Shown: one piece after another, positions 28,812-53,026 of the stretch
Layout: the number at the start of each line of letters is the position of its first letter
Numbering within the stretch: position 1 is the stretch's first letter
Assembly (NCBI RefSeq): GCF_900289045.1
Contig: NZ_LT985188.1
Coordinates: forward strand, 372,001-436,000
Direction of reading: 5' to 3'
Origin: Micropruina glycogenica
GTDB taxonomy: Bacteria > Actinomycetota > Actinomycetes > Propionibacteriales > Propionibacteriaceae
Length of the DNA stretch: 64,000 nt
Program-made: the position numbers and the translations under genes
Notes under the pieces: model-generated
Databases searched by the model: none
The model's input: only the letters and a program-made list of their open reading frames with translations
Told to the model about the DNA's origin: nothing

Positions 28812-30184
28812 CCTGTGGACTCATGTCAAGATGCCCGCTTGGGTTGGGTCGTTGACTCATTTCGTTTTGCCCGCGTCATTTTTGTTCGGGATAGGTAGAC
28901 GTGGTTGCGTTTGGCTGCTTTGAGGATGGTGCCGCGGCGGCGGGCGAGTTCGAGCAGGTTGCGTTGGATGAGGTCGATGTCTCGGCGTAGTTGGGCCGGG
29001 TTGGCCTGGGTGATGCGACTGTCAAGGTGTCGCCGGTCCTGGTCGTCGAGGACGGTGGGGTGGTCACGGAGCAGCCGGCCGGCCGGGGTGGTGGCGGTGT
29101 CGTAGGTCTTGGTGACTTTCGCTCCGGTGCGGGTCTTGGTTTTCAGCTTCTGTTGCGGGGTGAACAGGTTGGACAGTTCAGCGGCCAGGGGCCATAGCTG
29201 GTTGAGCAGGTCGAGTTCCCGGCTGGTGTCGTAGCGGTAGTAGCCGACGTTGCGGCGGACTCTGGTCCAGTTCTTCTGTTCGATGTGGGCTTGGTCGTTG
29301 GAATGGTTCGGGCGGCCGCGGGTGAACGTGATCTCACGGGTGTTGCACCAGCTCATCAGGTGGTGGTTAATGAACTCGGAGCCGTTGTCAGAGTGGACGC
29401 CCACGATCGCGAACGGGAACCGGAGGGCGAGTTGCTCCAGCCCGGTGGCCACGATCCTTTCGCCCTTGGACTTCACGGTGATGGTTTCGGTCCAACCGGT
29501 AGCCACGTCGACAGCGTCCAGGCTGTAGTGGAAGTGGCCGTTGTTGTCGCCGCCGTCGTGACCGACCAGATCGATCTCGATGAACCCTGGCTGGGTGTCG
29601 TCCCACTCGTGCCAGGTCTTCAGCGGGATCGACGATTTCAACAGCGATCCGGGGCGGGTCAAGGACCGGCCCTTGAGGTTGCCGACCAGCCCGAGCCGGT
29701 AGGGCCGCAATCGGCGATCGATGGTCGCCGCCGACATGGCCAGCAGTGCGTCGATGACTTCGGGTGTCGCGTTCAGCTCGCCCTTGGCGACCAGGCTCGC
29801 GACCAGGACCGGCAGCGCTGGGCGCACGATCTTGCCGCTGGGTCCGTCCAGCACCGCCCAGCACACCGCCAAGGCGTCGATCACCTCAGGTCCGTAGCGG
29901 AACACAGGCTCGCGGGGCCTGCGTGGCCGGTTCACGTCCACACCGGCGACCGCTGCCCGGATCATCTTGCGGGCATGGTCTCGATGCCAGCCGTTGACCG
30001 CGACCAGATGATCCAAAATGGTCGACTTCTCAGCCTTGGTCGCCTTCGGCCACGCCTTGACCTGGCTCGCCAGCACAGCCTTCCGTTGCCTCATCGTCAG
30101 CCCCATCCCCGCAGCCTGACCCACGCGGGCATTCTCAGATGAGTCAACGACCCCACCCACGCGGGCATTCAGCACGAGTCAACT
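28812..30184 (-). mobile_element. Insertion sequence, copy 1 of a tandem pair
   Basis: The element of about 1373 bp is bounded by direct repeats CGCTGAT at 28805-28811 and 30185-30191. Imperfect terminal inverted repeats share GACTC and ATGCCCGC. A second copy of the motif (GTCGTTGACTCAT, then TGCCCGC) lies just inside each end. It holds one integrase-core transposase gene. The exact outer boundary could move by a few bases. Confidence 0.85.
28826..30106 (-). CDS. Integrase-core (DDE) transposase, copy 1
   Basis: The 426-aa transposase has an N-terminal DNA-binding region, then the catalytic core: first Asp in FIEIDLVGHDGG, second in GVHSDNGSEF and the Glu in QAHIEQKNW. A long C-terminal tail is rich in basic residues. 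I place the start at ATG 30106; a further ATG at 30094 and longer starts inside the terminal repeat are possible. The family is an rve-type group (ISNCY or IS481-like); I cannot settle which. It is identical to the copy at 30206-31486 and is related to the transposase at 51765-52961. Confidence 0.88.
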   Translation of the reverse strand: MGLTMRQRKAVLASQVKAWPKATKAEKSTILDHLVAVNGWHRDHARKMIRAAVAGVDVNRPRRPREPVFRYGPEVIDALAVCWAVLDGPSGKIVRPALPVLVASLVAKGELNATPEVIDALLAMSAATIDRRLRPYRLGLVGNLKGRSLTRPGSLLKSSIPLKTWHEWDDTQPGFIEIDLVGHDGGDNNGHFHYSLDAVDVATGWTETITVKSKGERIVATGLEQLALRFPFAIVGVHSDNGSEFINHHLMSWCNTREITFTRGRPNHSNDQAHIEQKNWTRVRRNVGYYRYDTSRELDLLNQLWPLAAELSNLFTPQQKLKTKTRTGAKVTKTYDTATTPAGRLLRDHPTVLDDQDRRHLDSRITQANPAQLRRDIDLIQRNLLELARRRGTILKAAKRNHVYLSRTKMTRAKRNESTTQPKRAS

Positions 30185-30191
30185 CGCTGAT

Positions 30192-31564
30192 CCTGTGGAC
30201 TCATGTCAAGATGCCCGCTTGGGTTGGGTCGTTGACTCATTTCGTTTTGCCCGCGTCATTTTTGTTCGGGATAGGTAGACGTGGTTGCGTTTGGCTGCTT
30301 TGAGGATGGTGCCGCGGCGGCGGGCGAGTTCGAGCAGGTTGCGTTGGATGAGGTCGATGTCTCGGCGTAGTTGGGCCGGGTTGGCCTGGGTGATGCGACT
30401 GTCAAGGTGTCGCCGGTCCTGGTCGTCGAGGACGGTGGGGTGGTCACGGAGCAGCCGGCCGGCCGGGGTGGTGGCGGTGTCGTAGGTCTTGGTGACTTTC
30501 GCTCCGGTGCGGGTCTTGGTTTTCAGCTTCTGTTGCGGGGTGAACAGGTTGGACAGTTCAGCGGCCAGGGGCCATAGCTGGTTGAGCAGGTCGAGTTCCC
30601 GGCTGGTGTCGTAGCGGTAGTAGCCGACGTTGCGGCGGACTCTGGTCCAGTTCTTCTGTTCGATGTGGGCTTGGTCGTTGGAATGGTTCGGGCGGCCGCG
30701 GGTGAACGTGATCTCACGGGTGTTGCACCAGCTCATCAGGTGGTGGTTAATGAACTCGGAGCCGTTGTCAGAGTGGACGCCCACGATCGCGAACGGGAAC
30801 CGGAGGGCGAGTTGCTCCAGCCCGGTGGCCACGATCCTTTCGCCCTTGGACTTCACGGTGATGGTTTCGGTCCAACCGGTAGCCACGTCGACAGCGTCCA
30901 GGCTGTAGTGGAAGTGGCCGTTGTTGTCGCCGCCGTCGTGACCGACCAGATCGATCTCGATGAACCCTGGCTGGGTGTCGTCCCACTCGTGCCAGGTCTT
31001 CAGCGGGATCGACGATTTCAACAGCGATCCGGGGCGGGTCAAGGACCGGCCCTTGAGGTTGCCGACCAGCCCGAGCCGGTAGGGCCGCAATCGGCGATCG
31101 ATGGTCGCCGCCGACATGGCCAGCAGTGCGTCGATGACTTCGGGTGTCGCGTTCAGCTCGCCCTTGGCGACCAGGCTCGCGACCAGGACCGGCAGCGCTG
31201 GGCGCACGATCTTGCCGCTGGGTCCGTCCAGCACCGCCCAGCACACCGCCAAGGCGTCGATCACCTCAGGTCCGTAGCGGAACACAGGCTCGCGGGGCCT
31301 GCGTGGCCGGTTCACGTCCACACCGGCGACCGCTGCCCGGATCATCTTGCGGGCATGGTCTCGATGCCAGCCGTTGACCGCGACCAGATGATCCAAAATG
31401 GTCGACTTCTCAGCCTTGGTCGCCTTCGGCCACGCCTTGACCTGGCTCGCCAGCACAGCCTTCCGTTGCCTCATCGTCAGCCCCATCCCCGCAGCCTGAC
31501 CCACGCGGGCATTCTCAGATGAGTCAACGACCCCACCCACGCGGGCATTCAGCACGAGTCAACT
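30192..31564 (-). mobile_element. Insertion sequence, copy 2 of a tandem pair
   Basis: This copy is identical over the whole 1380-bp period to the first and in the same orientation. It is bounded by CGCTGAT at 30185-30191 and 31565-31571, so a single CGCTGAT separates the copies. Its right boundary abuts the -35 box of the tRNA-Thr promoter. Confidence 0.85.
30206..31486 (-). CDS. Integrase-core (DDE) transposase, copy 2
   Basis: The protein is identical to the transposase at 28826-30106, with the same Asp-Asp-Glu core (EIDLVGHDGG, HSDNGSEF, HIEQKNW). No disabling change separates the copies, so both could be active. As with copy 1, the precise start is uncertain. Confidence 0.88.
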   Translation of the reverse strand: MGLTMRQRKAVLASQVKAWPKATKAEKSTILDHLVAVNGWHRDHARKMIRAAVAGVDVNRPRRPREPVFRYGPEVIDALAVCWAVLDGPSGKIVRPALPVLVASLVAKGELNATPEVIDALLAMSAATIDRRLRPYRLGLVGNLKGRSLTRPGSLLKSSIPLKTWHEWDDTQPGFIEIDLVGHDGGDNNGHFHYSLDAVDVATGWTETITVKSKGERIVATGLEQLALRFPFAIVGVHSDNGSEFINHHLMSWCNTREITFTRGRPNHSNDQAHIEQKNWTRVRRNVGYYRYDTSRELDLLNQLWPLAAELSNLFTPQQKLKTKTRTGAKVTKTYDTATTPAGRLLRDHPTVLDDQDRRHLDSRITQANPAQLRRDIDLIQRNLLELARRRGTILKAAKRNHVYLSRTKMTRAKRNESTTQPKRAS

Positions 31565-39064: not shown

Positions 39065-39460
39065 ATGGCGAAGCTCAGCTCGGACGACCTCCTGGAGGCG
39101 TTCAAGGAGATGACGCTGATCGAGCTCTCTGAGTTCGTGAAGCAGTTCGAAGACACCTTCGGTGTCACCGCGGCCGCTCCGGTCGCGGCCGCCGCTGCCC
39201 CGGCCGCTGCCGGTGGTGCCGGCGACGCTGCCGAAGAAGAAGAGGTCAGCAACGAGGTCGACGTGATCCTCGAGTCGGCCGGCGACAAGAAGATCCAGGT
39301 CATCAAAGAGGTGCGCGCGCTCACCAGCCTGGGCCTCAAGGAGGCCAAGGACCTGGTCGAGGCGGCTCCGAAGCCCGTTCTGGAGAAGGTCACCCGCGAA
39401 GCCGCTGCCAAGGCCAAGGAGGCCCTCGAGGCCGCCGGCGCCGCGGTCAGCGTCAAGTGA
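39065..39460 (+). CDS. rplL: 50S ribosomal protein L7/L12
   Basis: The 131-aa stalk protein has an N-terminal dimer domain ([18 protein letters not shown]), an Ala-rich hinge and the C-terminal factor-binding domain with [24 protein letters not shown]. It recruits EF-Tu and EF-G. It follows rplJ by 17 bp with a GAAAGGA site. Confidence 0.98.
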
Positions 39461-39579: not shown

Positions 39580-39613
39580 ATCGGCGGCGGAACCTCGTGG
39601 TTCCGCCGCCGAT
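39580..39613 (-). terminator. Terminator hairpin of the small secreted-peptide gene
   Basis: A perfect 15-bp stem (ATCGGCGGCGGAACC with its complement) closes a TCGT loop. Read on the minus strand it follows the peptide stop by about 40 bp and precedes ATTAGCATTTG. Confidence 0.6.
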
Positions 39614-39649: not shown

Positions 39650-39796
39650 CTACTTCACCGACTTGGTCAACTTGACCGATTGCGGCCACCAGCCCTCACC
39701 GCCGGCATGATCGCCCTGAGTGGCTGCGCTGATCGGAACGATGGCGACGGCCAACAGAGTTGCGGCGGCCACGATGGCCTTACGGATTCCCTTCAT
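39650..39796 (-). CDS. Small secreted-type peptide precursor, candidate signalling peptide
   Basis: The 48-aa product begins MKGIRKAIVAAATLLAVAIV, a basic N-terminus with a hydrophobic core, and has a PISAA cleavage-like site near residue 25. The predicted mature part of about 23 residues contains GDHAGGEGWWPQS and a KLTKSVK tail. A strong GGGGGAG site lies five bases before the ATG, so it is clearly translated. I do not recognise its family. It is divergent from an XRE-TPR regulator and its promoter -35 overlaps a palindrome that is repeated after that regulator. That arrangement suggests a secreted signal read by the regulator, which is inference. Confidence 0.75.
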   Translation of the reverse strand: MKGIRKAIVAAATLLAVAIVPISAATQGDHAGGEGWWPQSVKLTKSVK

Positions 39797-39837
39797 TGTT
39801 TCTCCCCCGGAAGAAATGGTTGTGCATTGTGCTGACA

Positions 39838-39867
39838 ATGATGGTCGAGACTTGACGGATATGTCAA
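39838..39867 (-). promoter_or_regulatory. Promoter of the small peptide gene, overlapped by a palindrome
   Basis: On the minus strand TTGACA (39867-39862) and CATCAT (39843-39838) are 18 bp apart. The leader would be about 35 nt. Confidence 0.5.
39852..39867. promoter_or_regulatory. Palindromic operator candidate, site 1 (TTGAC-N6-GTCAA)
   Basis: TTGACGGATATGTCAA sits between the divergent peptide and regulator genes and covers the peptide -35 box. AAGTGACAG-type half sites lie next to it toward the regulator. Confidence 0.6.
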
Positions 39868-39909
39868 GTAGTGACAGCCTAAGTGACAGACCCCCGGAGG
39901 AGGTGCGTT

Positions 39910-41199
39910 TTGTCGGCGTCGCTAGCCCACAGCGAGTTTGGAGCGCGGCTGCGCGAGACACGTAAGCGTCTCGGTCTGTCACAGAGCGAGCTGGGTGGCG
40001 ACCGGTACTCCGGCAGCTACATCTCCCATCTGGAGAGCGGCCGTCGGGCCGCATCGGCCGAGGTGATCGAGTTTCTGGCCGGGCGACTGGGCGTCGAGGT
40101 CGAAGAGTTGGGCATGGTTGCCGCTCCGCCGACCGCGCTCGAAAGCGTCGAAGACATTCAGGCGCTGGAGATGTTGCTGGTCGCCGATCGGGCCTGGCAC
40201 GACCGCGACTGGGGTACTGCCGGTGAACTGGCGCTGCGCGCCGCGGCGTCCGCCCTGCAGGCGGGGCATGCCGAGCGGCACTGGCAGGCGCTGTACCTGC
40301 GGGCGCAGGCGGCGCTGGCCGAGGGCGACTTCACCGATGCGATCCACTTCGCCGAGCAGTTGGCCACCCACCAAGTGGCCGTCGCGTCGCCTACTCTTCG
40401 TGCGCGCGCGTTGTGCCTGTCGGCCACCGCTCACCGGGCCGGCGACGAACTTCCGATGGCGTTGGTGCACGCCGGCCAGGCCGTCGAACTGGCCCGCGAC
40501 GCACCACCCATCGTGCTGGCCGACGCACTGATGTGCCTTGTCAGCGCAGTTTTGGAAAGCGGGCGTCCGACCGCGGAGTCTGATCGTCTGTGTCGCCGCC
40601 TCGAAGACGTCAGCCTGCACGTCGAGTCGTCGCACGCCCGCGGCGTCATCTACTGGACATTGGGCACCGCATCGTTCAAATCGGGCAACGTCAGCAAGGG
40701 CCTCGAGATGCACGACTCGGCCCTGCAGTTGCTGAGCCCTCGACGCGATCTGCGCCTGTGGCTGCGGTTGAACATGTCTGCGGTCGGCTGCCGGCTGAGC
40801 GCCGGCATCACCGAGGGCGTCAAAGAGTTGCTCGACGCAGCAAACGGCGGCCTGATGCTGATCGGCAACCCGTTCGACATCTTCGAGTTGCGACATGCCG
40901 AGGCGAAACTCGAGTTGCTCGAGGGCCGTCCGCTTGAAGCGCGCAAGTTGGTCAAGACGTTGATCGCTGATCCGGCCCTGCGGTCGGCGGTGGCGACCAA
41001 CGGTCGCGCCGAAGAGTTGTTGGCCGACATCGAGCTCGATCTGGGTGAGAAAGACCTTGCCAGGGCGGCATTCATTCGTGCCGCCGGCCTGTACGGAATT
41101 CAAGAGCAGTTCCGCCAGGCCAGCCTGTGCTGGCAGCGTGCGGTCGACCTCGAAACCCTGCGTGCCCATAATATGGACACTGTCGCAGACGCTAGTTGA
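39910..41199 (+). CDS. XRE-family regulator with TPR domain (RRNPP-like)
   Basis: The 429-aa protein has an N-terminal helix-turn-helix, FGARLRETRKRLGLSQSELG then SGSYISHLESGRR (about 7-60), followed by about 350 residues of paired helices. These look like tetratricopeptide repeats, for example AGELALRAAASALQAGHAERHWQALYL and ALVHAGQAVELA. An XRE domain joined to TPRs is the architecture of peptide-sensing RRNPP regulators and also of some stand-alone regulators. The TTG start at 39910 follows GGAGGAGG with good spacing. Its stop codon lies within a second copy of the palindrome found upstream, and the secreted peptide gene is divergent from it. Function as a peptide receptor is inferred. Confidence 0.85.
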   Translation: MSASLAHSEFGARLRETRKRLGLSQSELGGDRYSGSYISHLESGRRAASAEVIEFLAGRLGVEVEELGMVAAPPTALESVEDIQALEMLLVADRAWHDRDWGTAGELALRAAASALQAGHAERHWQALYLRAQAALAEGDFTDAIHFAEQLATHQVAVASPTLRARALCLSATAHRAGDELPMALVHAGQAVELARDAPPIVLADALMCLVSAVLESGRPTAESDRLCRRLEDVSLHVESSHARGVIYWTLGTASFKSGNVSKGLEMHDSALQLLSPRRDLRLWLRLNMSAVGCRLSAGITEGVKELLDAANGGLMLIGNPFDIFELRHAEAKLELLEGRPLEARKLVKTLIADPALRSAVATNGRAEELLADIELDLGEKDLARAAFIRAAGLYGIQEQFRQASLCWQRAVDLETLRAHNMDTVADAS

Positions 41200-41211
41200 C
41201 AAGACTGTCAA
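41196..41211. promoter_or_regulatory. Palindromic operator candidate, site 2 (TTGACA-N4-TGTCAA)
   Basis: TTGACAAGACTGTCAA overlaps the regulator stop codon. It shares TTGAC-N6-GTCAAGT with site 1. A further GTTGTCAAC lies at 41229-41237, inside the next promoter. Confidence 0.6.
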
Positions 41212-41229
41212 GTGATGGTCGAATAACTG

Positions 41230-41258
41230 TTGTCAACGGCACAACCCCCCGATAGCGT
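41230..41258 (+). promoter_or_regulatory. Promoter downstream of the XRE-TPR gene
   Basis: TTGTCA (41230-41235) and TAGCGT (41253-41258) are 17 bp apart. No ORF follows; the expected transcript leads into two hairpins. Confidence 0.5.
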
Positions 41259-41264
41259 CGTTGA

Positions 41265-41396
41265 TGGGCACTGCTGATCGGTGTTCGCCTTGTGAGTTTC
41301 CTCCCGTTGCCCGAGGCGAACACCGATTCGGTGTAAAAGGGGTCCCCCGCCCCAGGAGTTTGAGCCGCCGTTCCCCCACGGCGGCTCCTCCATTTT
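41265..41396 (+). ncRNA. Candidate small RNA with two hairpins
   Basis: The expected transcript of about 130 nt contains a perfect 13-bp stem (41277-41289 with 41315-41327) whose 25-nt loop includes TTTCCTCCC, and a perfect 10-bp stem (41362-41371 with 41378-41387) with a TCCCCC loop followed by CATTTTC, a likely terminator. C-rich loops can pair with ribosome binding sites. It is not a confident match to a named RNA family. Confidence 0.45.
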
Positions 41397-41543
41397 CTGG
41401 CCAGTGCGTGTGACGACGACCCTGCGCGGGCGACGCCCGACGACGTGACGGGGAATACCCGTGCCCCAGCTGAGCGTTGAGCCTGTGAGGGGTTTGAGCC
41501 TCTCCTCACCATCGCTGTCGCCCAGCAGGTGTCGGACCTCGGT

Positions 41544-41572
41544 TTGCCAACATCTGCAGAACGTACTAATGT
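41544..41572 (+). promoter_or_regulatory. Promoter of rpoBC
   Basis: TTGCCA (41544-41549) and TAATGT (41567-41572) are 17 bp apart, giving a leader of about 90 nt before rpoB. Confidence 0.6.
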
Positions 41573-41671: not shown

Positions 41672-45145
<3,474 letters not shown>

Positions 45146-51703: not shown

Positions 51704-53026
51704 TGCCTCACGTCAAGATGTCCGCGGGTGATTGGCGCGTGCCTCATATGAAATGTCCGGATGGTTAGGCGGCGGGGCGGGTGCCGAGGGTGCGTGCTTT
51801 GGCTAGGTCGATGAGTTGTTGCTGGATGTGGTTGATGCCTCGGGTGATGCGTGCTGGGTTGAGCTTGTCGTGTTCGGCTGCGAGCCGGGCACGGGTCGCG
51901 GGGTCGGGCGGGCCGGTGTCGAGGAGCCGCTGGTAGGGGGTTTTGGGTTTGTCGTAGACACGCTTCTTGCGGCCGCTGCGGGTCTGGGTCCAGTCGACGG
52001 CTTTGACGCAGGGCAGCAGGTGGTTCTTGCGGGCCATGACCAGGTCCCAGAGTTGGTTGAGCAGGGCGAGTTCGGTGTCGGTTTCGTAGCGGTAGCGGAA
52101 GGCGTGGCGGCGGACCCAGTCGCCGTTGCGTTGCTCGATGTGGGCGTTGTCGTTGTGGTGGTAGGGCCGGCCGCGGGTGATCGGGATGTGGTGGTCGTCG
52201 CACCAGGCGATCACGGACCAGTTCATGAACTCGGAGCCGTTGTCGAAGTCCATGCCGGCGATCGGGAGGGGTGCCAGTTTGGCGATCCATTCCAGGCCGG
52301 CGTGGACGTGCACGAACGCGTTGTTGCGGATGCTGCGCAGCATGGTCCAGCCGGTCACCGGATCGGTTGCTGACAAGGTGCGAAGGAACTCGCCTTGGAG
52401 TGTGTGGCCGCAGTGAGCGACAGTGTCCAACTCCAGAAACCCGGGCACGGTGATCGGGTCGTCGGTCGCGGTGCGCAGCGGGATCGAGGACCGCAGGATG
52501 TGCGAGGGTCGGGTGCTGGACAGGCCGGCGGCGGGGTAGCCGGCAGCCTTGTGCGGTTTCAGGTAACGGTCGATCGTGGCTGCCGACATCGACCTTAGTT
52601 CGTCGATCACCGTGTCGCTGACCCGGTCGGCGACCTTGCCGAGCTCACGGTCTCGAACCAGCCGACACAGGGTGTCCTCCATCACCACGGCCAGGTACTT
52701 GCCCGATGGTTGACCGGCCAGCCGCCACACCTCCTGCAACACGATCAGCGCATCGTAGGAGTACTTGCGTGGGCGTGGTTTCCGCTGCTGGTCGCGGGCC
52801 GCGCCCTTGCGGGTGGCCGCGGCCCGGATCGCTCGGCGGGCGTGATCGCGGGTCCAGCCCGTCGACGCCACTAGCGCGTCGAGGATACGGCTCTTCTCAG
52901 CTCTGTCCGCCTTCGCGTATTCGCGGGCGAACTTCTTGGTCACATCACGGCGCGACGCCATCGACAACTCCCTGCTCACAGGGCCAGGGAACCCCAACAG
53001 CTAGGCGGACATCCTCATGTGAGGCA
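51704..53026 (-). mobile_element. Insertion sequence related to the tandem pair
   Basis: The element of about 1323 bp has terminal inverted repeats (TGCCTCACGTCAAGATGTCC at the left and a close complement at the right) plus a second copy of the motif (GTGCCTCATATGAAATGTCC) just inside the left end. This mirrors the end structure of the tandem copies, with a diverged sequence. Target repeats are not clear. Confidence 0.78.
51765..52961 (-). CDS. Integrase-core (DDE) transposase of the third IS
   Basis: The 398-aa protein shares the layout of the tandem copies: N-terminal ASTGWTRDHARRAIRAAA, the core with FLELDTVAHCGH (first Asp), GMDFDNGSEFMNW (second Asp) and NAHIEQRNGDW (Glu), and a basic C-terminal end. 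ATG 52961 has an AGGGAG site six bases upstream; a start at 52997 is possible. It is a diverged relative, not a copy. Confidence 0.87.
   Translation of the reverse strand: MASRRDVTKKFAREYAKADRAEKSRILDALVASTGWTRDHARRAIRAAATRKGAARDQQRKPRPRKYSYDALIVLQEVWRLAGQPSGKYLAVVMEDTLCRLVRDRELGKVADRVSDTVIDELRSMSAATIDRYLKPHKAAGYPAAGLSSTRPSHILRSSIPLRTATDDPITVPGFLELDTVAHCGHTLQGEFLRTLSATDPVTGWTMLRSIRNNAFVHVHAGLEWIAKLAPLPIAGMDFDNGSEFMNWSVIAWCDDHHIPITRGRPYHHNDNAHIEQRNGDWVRRHAFRYRYETDTELALLNQLWDLVMARKNHLLPCVKAVDWTQTRSGRKKRVYDKPKTPYQRLLDTGPPDPATRARLAAEHDKLNPARITRGINHIQQQLIDLAKARTLGTRPAA

Follow-up and report, generated by a model that had tools for sequence, protein, structure and literature searches.

Between the ribosomal protein gene rplL and the RNA polymerase gene rpoB of Micropruina glycogenica, a 48 amino acid secreted-type peptide precursor is encoded divergently from a regulator with an XRE DNA-binding domain and a TPR-like solenoid. 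The two genes, with a pair of palindromic operators and a structured small RNA (sRNA), likely form an autoregulated peptide-receptor module of RRNPP-like working whose output is the sRNA. The peptide-signalling interpretation of this locus had been put forward in an initial annotation made from the letters of the DNA, and it is supported here: the gene pair, its co-conservation and the operators are seen in the sequence, while binding is inferred, as are secretion, maturation, import, repression, and the transcription and targets of the sRNA. Positions below refer to the window, i.e., the whole stretch of 64,000 nucleotides that was analysed.

Organization of the Locus

The Micropruina genome, a single contig, has 3.84 Mb, and the locus is flanked by rplL (39065–39460) and rpoB (start near 41672). 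Reading from rplL, the order is an inverted repeat, the peptide gene on the reverse strand, a palindrome, the regulator gene, a second palindrome, the sRNA segment, a terminator-like hairpin and a promoter-like sequence for rpoB (Table 1).

Table 1. Features of the peptide, regulator and sRNA locus (window positions)
Feature	Position	Strand	Basis or remark
Inverted repeat, strong, probable terminator	39580..39613	.	Between rplL and the 3' end of the peptide gene; from sequence
Gene for 48-aa secreted peptide precursor, ATG start at 39796	39650..39796	-	Kept in relatives; purifying selection
Probable Sec signal peptide, residues 1–24 (..VPISA/ATQ)	39725..39796	-	Sequence; cleavage site judged by eye, without a signal-peptide predictor
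Conserved peptide core AGGEGWWP	39683..39706	-	Alignment: G-x-W invariant; tandem repeats in relatives
Peptide promoter TTGACA-18-CATCAT	39838..39867	-	Top promoter-like match of the region, 10/12
Operator 1, CTTGAC-N6-GTCAAG (CTTGACGGATATGTCAAG), over -35 boxes of both divergent promoters	39851..39868	.	Predicted from palindrome and conservation
XRE-TPR regulator, 429 aa; HTH residues 9–67, TPR-like helices 80–428	39910..41199	+	
Operator 2 (GTTGACAAGACTGTCAAG), over regulator stop codon; TTGACA is the -35 box of a probable sRNA promoter	41195..41212	.	Predicted
Structured small RNA, conserved; two hairpins with C-rich loops (ACCCCCC; CCTCCCG)	~41225..41338	+	Covariance-model match at G000:C1:413225-413338
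Terminator-like hairpin (GAGCCGCCG..CGGCGGCTC, T-rich tail) 3' of the sRNA	41362..41387	+	
rpoB promoter-like TTGCCA-17-TAATGT, downstream of the sRNA	41544..41572	+	By eye; counterparts in relatives

This layout bears on three claims of the initial annotation. Its description of the genes (a 48 amino acid peptide divergent from a 429 amino acid XRE-TPR protein, between rplL and rpoB) held. Its statement that the cassette is inserted there held in part, the word being a relative term; within the family, the site is the same in most carriers. Its proposal that signalling is tied to the transcription core is unproven; the sRNA segment and the terminator precede what appears, partly by eye, to be rpoB's own promoter. 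We considered whether operator 2 controls rpoB and think this less likely, because a terminator and a separate promoter-like sequence intervene.

Elsewhere in the window, two adjoining open reading frames (ORFs) of 449 amino acids (28826–30175 and 30206–31555) encode 100% identical proteins with an integrase core domain (rve), apparently the tandem duplicate of an insertion sequence and a recent event. A different rve-type transposase ORF of 410 amino acids (51765–52997; E 8e-7, below the curated cut-off) lies between rpoC and the EF-G gene.

The Peptide Gene and Its Conserved Core

The precursor (MKGIRKAIVAAATLLAVAIVPISA/ATQGDHAGGEGWWPQSVKLTKSVK, 48 amino acids) has the ribosome site GGGGGAG; no other signal-like ORF in the 64-kb window has a [GA]xWP core. 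Of 148 relatives, 24 have a regulator homologue, as do 31 named genome records; the close ones nearly all lie at the same rplL-rpoB site. Among 35 distinct loci with a regulator homologue, 34 carry a divergent ORF whose product has a basic N-terminus and also a hydrophobic stretch; a [GA]-x-W core is present in 33 of these 34, the remaining one having Y for W. As controls for this association we used dinucleotide shuffles, regulator-free loci and random sequence. Under the same rule, a signal-like ORF with the core is found in 33/35 loci and in 0/3,500 shuffles that keep the dinucleotide make-up of these regions. Fifteen family members without the regulator have neither the operator nor such a peptide behind rplL, in a stretch of 219–422 bp where rpoB was reached and otherwise of up to about 1.5 kb. 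The 35th locus belongs to the long-read metagenome-assembled genome (MAG) Micropruina SSC1, where the ORF is frameshifted. A different frame of this long-read MAG still gives the core (GSGEWPQIKK), so the break is likely a sequencing error or a recent frameshift.

Substitutions in the peptide gene are commonest at third codon positions, with an uncorrected pN/pS of 0.36 to 0.72 in four groups. By this sequence comparison, the peptide gene is real and under purifying selection. The initial annotation had named co-occurrence of peptide and regulator in relatives as one check on its reading, and a regulator kept beside a missing or broken peptide ORF as one refutation. That comparison has been run: the pair co-occurs, the ORF is intact in all but one of the distinct loci, and the interpretation is supported. 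As for the features it saw in the mature sequence, GGEGWW falls within the conserved part of the alignment, GGxGxWP, in which G-x-W is invariant, while the KLTKSVK tail is not conserved.

In several relatives the core is repeated in tandem behind one signal sequence: there are five AGGGIWPK units in locus L012, three AGGGIWYK in L021, three GEGIWY in L011 and three ADRGIWY in Desertihabitans aurantiacus (L025/L072). Outside Propionibacteriaceae, Curtobacterium sp. ISL-83 (L069) has four AGEGNWPS-type units. Locus L124 has three GNWPDPM units, the f22 genomes two or three DIxWP, and a plasmid of Streptomyces sp. NBC_01006 (L154) three DIGWP. The simplest explanation, inferred from these repeats without processing having been observed, is cleavage into several near-identical short peptides. 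In RRNPP(A) systems the active peptide has roughly 5–10 residues and lies near the C-terminus of its precursor; here the candidate, predicted from the sequence without maturation having been observed, is the conserved 7–9-residue core near the C-terminus.

The Regulator

The regulator starts at a TTG codon after GGAGGAGG. It matches HTH_31 and HTH_3 (E 4e-10 and 3e-8, respectively), and its TPR matches are weak. The AlphaFold model shows the helix-turn-helix (HTH) domain followed by an all-helical TPR-like solenoid (mean pLDDT 90.9). When the model was searched against the PDB, eukaryotic TPR proteins came out on top, and Rap-CSF, RapF with peptide, PlcR-PapR-DNA and NprR were among the matches; query TM-scores to Rap, PlcR and NprR were 0.27–0.50, not above those of the eukaryotic TPRs. 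A sequence search of the PDB found similarity to RRNPP proteins through the HTH only, otherwise to designed TPRs, and no homology beyond the HTH.

Two defining features of RRNPP(A) systems are present: a receptor with an HTH that is mostly N-terminal in such systems and a C-terminal TPR solenoid, and an adjoining small gene for an exported precursor, the export being judged from the signal-like N-terminus. That the protein works like an RRNPP receptor is well supported by this architecture, but a common origin with Rap, NprR, PlcR, PrgX, Rgg or AimR is not established by sequence or fold. We therefore speak of RRNPP-like working and leave membership undecided, because the architecture agrees but the sequence similarity stops at the HTH.

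Operators

The palindrome of operator 1 contains the -35 hexamer TTGACA and overlaps both -35 boxes of the divergent promoter pair. A TTGAC-N6-GTCAA sequence lies approximately 50–100 bp before the aligned start of the regulator in nearly all family members. Some clades have N5 spacing or one-letter changes, and Curtobacterium has two copies of TGAC-N6-GTCA; most family members also have a second dyad (N6 to N8) at the regulator's end. The initial annotation had noted a palindrome on the peptide -35 box and a second copy at the end of the regulator, and this held, both copies being conserved in most carriers. In the whole genome, operator 1 alone matches YTTGAC-N6-GTCAAR exactly. Operator 2 has one mismatch to this pattern, and one-mismatch matches are genome-wide fewer than those to a reversed control pattern; the claim for operator 2 hence depends on where it lies and on its being conserved in relatives. 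Since the operators are built around TTGACA -35 boxes, repression is the simplest mode of action. That the regulator represses is a guess from operator position, possible but inferred from sequence alone and without binding data.

A Predicted Structured Small RNA behind Operator 2

The segment directly 3' of operator 2 is conserved far above its surroundings and folds into two C-loop hairpins (z-score -6.6 for 41222–41400). Over 20 sequences, both sides of the pair have changed at 9 of 20 pairs (54 cells, compared with 16 in shuffles), and 94% of cells can pair, compared with 31–42% when the partner is slid. A covariance model, searched against the 148 relatives, gave full-length matches in 10 genomes, all behind the XRE-TPR regulator, and zero matches elsewhere. 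The model was trained largely on sequences from these same 10 genomes, so the informative part of the result is the absence of unlinked copies. Other genera of the family (L013, L015, L016, L018, L063, L020) show a different hairpin at this position; it, too, is conserved and has a CCCCC loop.

The 6C RNA of Actinobacteria (Rfam RF01066) consists of two hairpins with C-rich loops, and the Micropruina sRNA is alike in this respect. An identification as 6C RNA was rejected: no Rfam family matches the sRNA locus by covariance model, and no 6C RNA was found in the genome. The Micropruina sRNA differs also in sitting behind an operator beside a regulator. We conclude that this is an undescribed structured sRNA, its structure and covariation being shown by the comparison and its transcription inferred. 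From the C-rich loops one may guess that it binds G-rich ribosome sites, a possibility only. In Micropruina the ribosome site of the peptide gene (CGGGGG) is complementary to a C-loop; by eye this is not conserved in other genera, and we do not claim it.

Distribution in Actinomycetes

In a sample of Actinomycetes, 64 of 395 genomes have regulator homologues, many with a divergent secreted mini-peptide that ends in a WP-type or CC motif. The view in the initial annotation that RRNPP-like pairs are known mainly from Firmicutes was not borne out by this survey. Where Nocardioidaceae loci lack a divergent peptide, there is mostly a convergent one with a WCC end. Twenty XRE-TPR loci of the Nocardioidaceae type had been tried as a negative control and were rejected as such, because most of them carry these convergent peptides. 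In Nocardioidaceae and neighbours (L103–L122), the convergent WCC mini-peptides are present in two or three copies in some loci (L103, L104). In genome group f23 (L136–L151, L169–L182), the XRE-TPR regulator is strongly conserved, and divergent from it are secreted peptides of 40–53 amino acids with a PGxFCC or WPxMCC end. No signal-like ORF with a CC end occurred in 1.28 Mb of random sequence with the dinucleotide make-up of the window or in 89 kb of control loci. No relatives were found in viral contigs.

Do the peptides follow their receptors? On a tree of 107 regulators, peptide type (GxW, CC, WP or none) changes 15 times, compared with 50 times when shuffled; some of the "none" labels are detection misses, the peptides having been found later. 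Clade-wise peptide types fit co-evolution of peptide and receptor, which is possible, and shared ancestry alone explains part of the pattern.

Two loci give hints of function through their neighbours. In Curtobacterium sp. ISL-83 (L069, 671–2815), the precursor with four GEGNW cores comes first in what looks like an operon that also encodes a cupin and a tRNA-synthetase-like enzyme of class I (Met-type); this is possibly an uncharacterised biosynthetic or modification pathway. On the Streptomyces sp. NBC_01006 plasmid (L154, 1–2662), the DIGWP precursor is divergent from the XRE-TPR gene; an ATP-grasp gene follows it directly, and an MFS transporter is encoded nearby. These neighbours appear to be either target operons of the signal or enzymes that modify the peptide.

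Discussion

We favour a peptide-receptor pair because of the co-occurrence of the two genes, the purifying selection on the peptide, the tandem cores, the common operator and the distribution of peptide types by clade. In the model we propose, the precursor would be exported via the Sec route and trimmed to a short peptide around GGEGWWP, which would be taken back up, probably by an Opp-type importer. Such re-import is possible since five Opp-type binding proteins (SBP_bac_5) are over the cut-off in the genome, although their function is not known and other roles are possible. The peptide would then be bound in the TPR solenoid of the regulator. A regulator dimer is predicted to occupy the TTGAC-N6-GTCAA operators, which overlap the -35 boxes of three promoters (the divergent pair for peptide and regulator, and the one for the sRNA), and the peptide would relieve repression, giving an autoinducing loop with the C-loop sRNA as output. 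The sRNA may then act on G-rich ribosome-binding sites. Against the model stands the lack of direct evidence for secretion, processing, import or binding, and so do the HTH-only sequence link to RRNPP proteins and the higher rank of eukaryotic TPR proteins in the fold search.

Could the precursor instead be a RiPP or bacteriocin-like product, with the XRE-TPR protein merely the regulator of its pathway? Tandem cores are common among RiPP precursors, and the Curtobacterium operon with its cupin and tRNA-synthetase-like genes, as well as the ATP-grasp gene after the Streptomyces plasmid precursor, would suit such a pathway. However, the rplL-rpoB site has no enzyme, exporter or immunity gene, the peptide gene being followed by the inverted repeat and rplL; the N-terminus resembles a Sec signal and not a RiPP leader; and peptide type tracks receptor clade. 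We consider this alternative unlikely. A toxin-antitoxin logic, in which the XRE protein controls a small ORF for a toxin-like, hydrophobic membrane peptide, has in its favour a small hydrophobic ORF adjoining an XRE gene with a common palindrome, but conservation falls outside the hydrophobic stretch, relatives repeat the core in tandem and the regulator has a long TPR solenoid, so that this is the least credible of the alternatives.

Another alternative is a secretion monitor: precursor left unexported in the cytoplasm would be sensed by the regulator, which would report Sec or protease capacity, not other cells. Peptide and receptor do come from the same cell, and the locus is chromosomal, single-copy and mostly fixed at its site in the family. 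Yet the most conserved and repeated part of the precursor follows the signal sequence, so it appears to be the mature part that is read, and core types that diversify with receptor clade fit signalling better. We regard a monitor, too, as improbable, and retain the signalling module as the preferred reading.

The module shares with the RRNPP(A) receptors (PlcR-PapR, NprR-NprX, ComR-ComS, Rgg-SHP, PrgX-cCF10, Rap-Phr, AimR) the HTH and TPR receptor, the adjacent small gene for a precursor with a secretion-type N-terminus, and a predicted operator at its own promoters; a short C-terminal core as the signal is predicted for it as well. Propeptides with several pheromone copies have been described in phage Rap systems of Bacillus (PMC11343458). 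Unlike RRNPP(A) systems, the actinobacterial pair has GGxGxWP, WPxP or ..CC cores, a longer TPR-like solenoid and a linked sRNA, and no sequence homology of its regulator to them was found beyond the HTH. Recent surveys treat RRNPPA as systems of Bacillota, and signalling in Actinomycetota as typically based on small molecules (PMC10075063, PMC12700828; also PMC4748050). Gamma-butyrolactone receptors (ArpA type), which are used in actinobacteria (PMC4748050), are likewise small autoregulatory signalling modules of this group. They are TetR-type proteins with small-molecule ligands and no encoded peptide. We found no report of the present peptide-receptor class in the literature searched, which left out preprints and many subscription papers.

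It is tempting to go further and to suppose that XRE-TPR peptide-pheromone signalling is widespread in Actinomycetes, with undescribed signal classes (GxWP, WPxP, WCC/CC) in divergent and convergent layouts, and that in Propionibacteriaceae it drives an undescribed C-loop sRNA; "undescribed" here means not described in the literature checked. This bolder reading we would as readily doubt as accept.

RRNPP-type sensing has been described as a trait of Bacillota, and an equivalent architecture with a peptide alphabet of its own is present in several actinobacterial families, its carriers including genome groups with 6–9-Mb genomes and Streptomyces plasmids. The pairs predict testable peptide ligands for receptors whose present annotation goes no further than helix-turn-helix protein, might give access to silent gene clusters such as the Curtobacterium and Streptomyces operons, and add a candidate peptide-controlled sRNA as an output.
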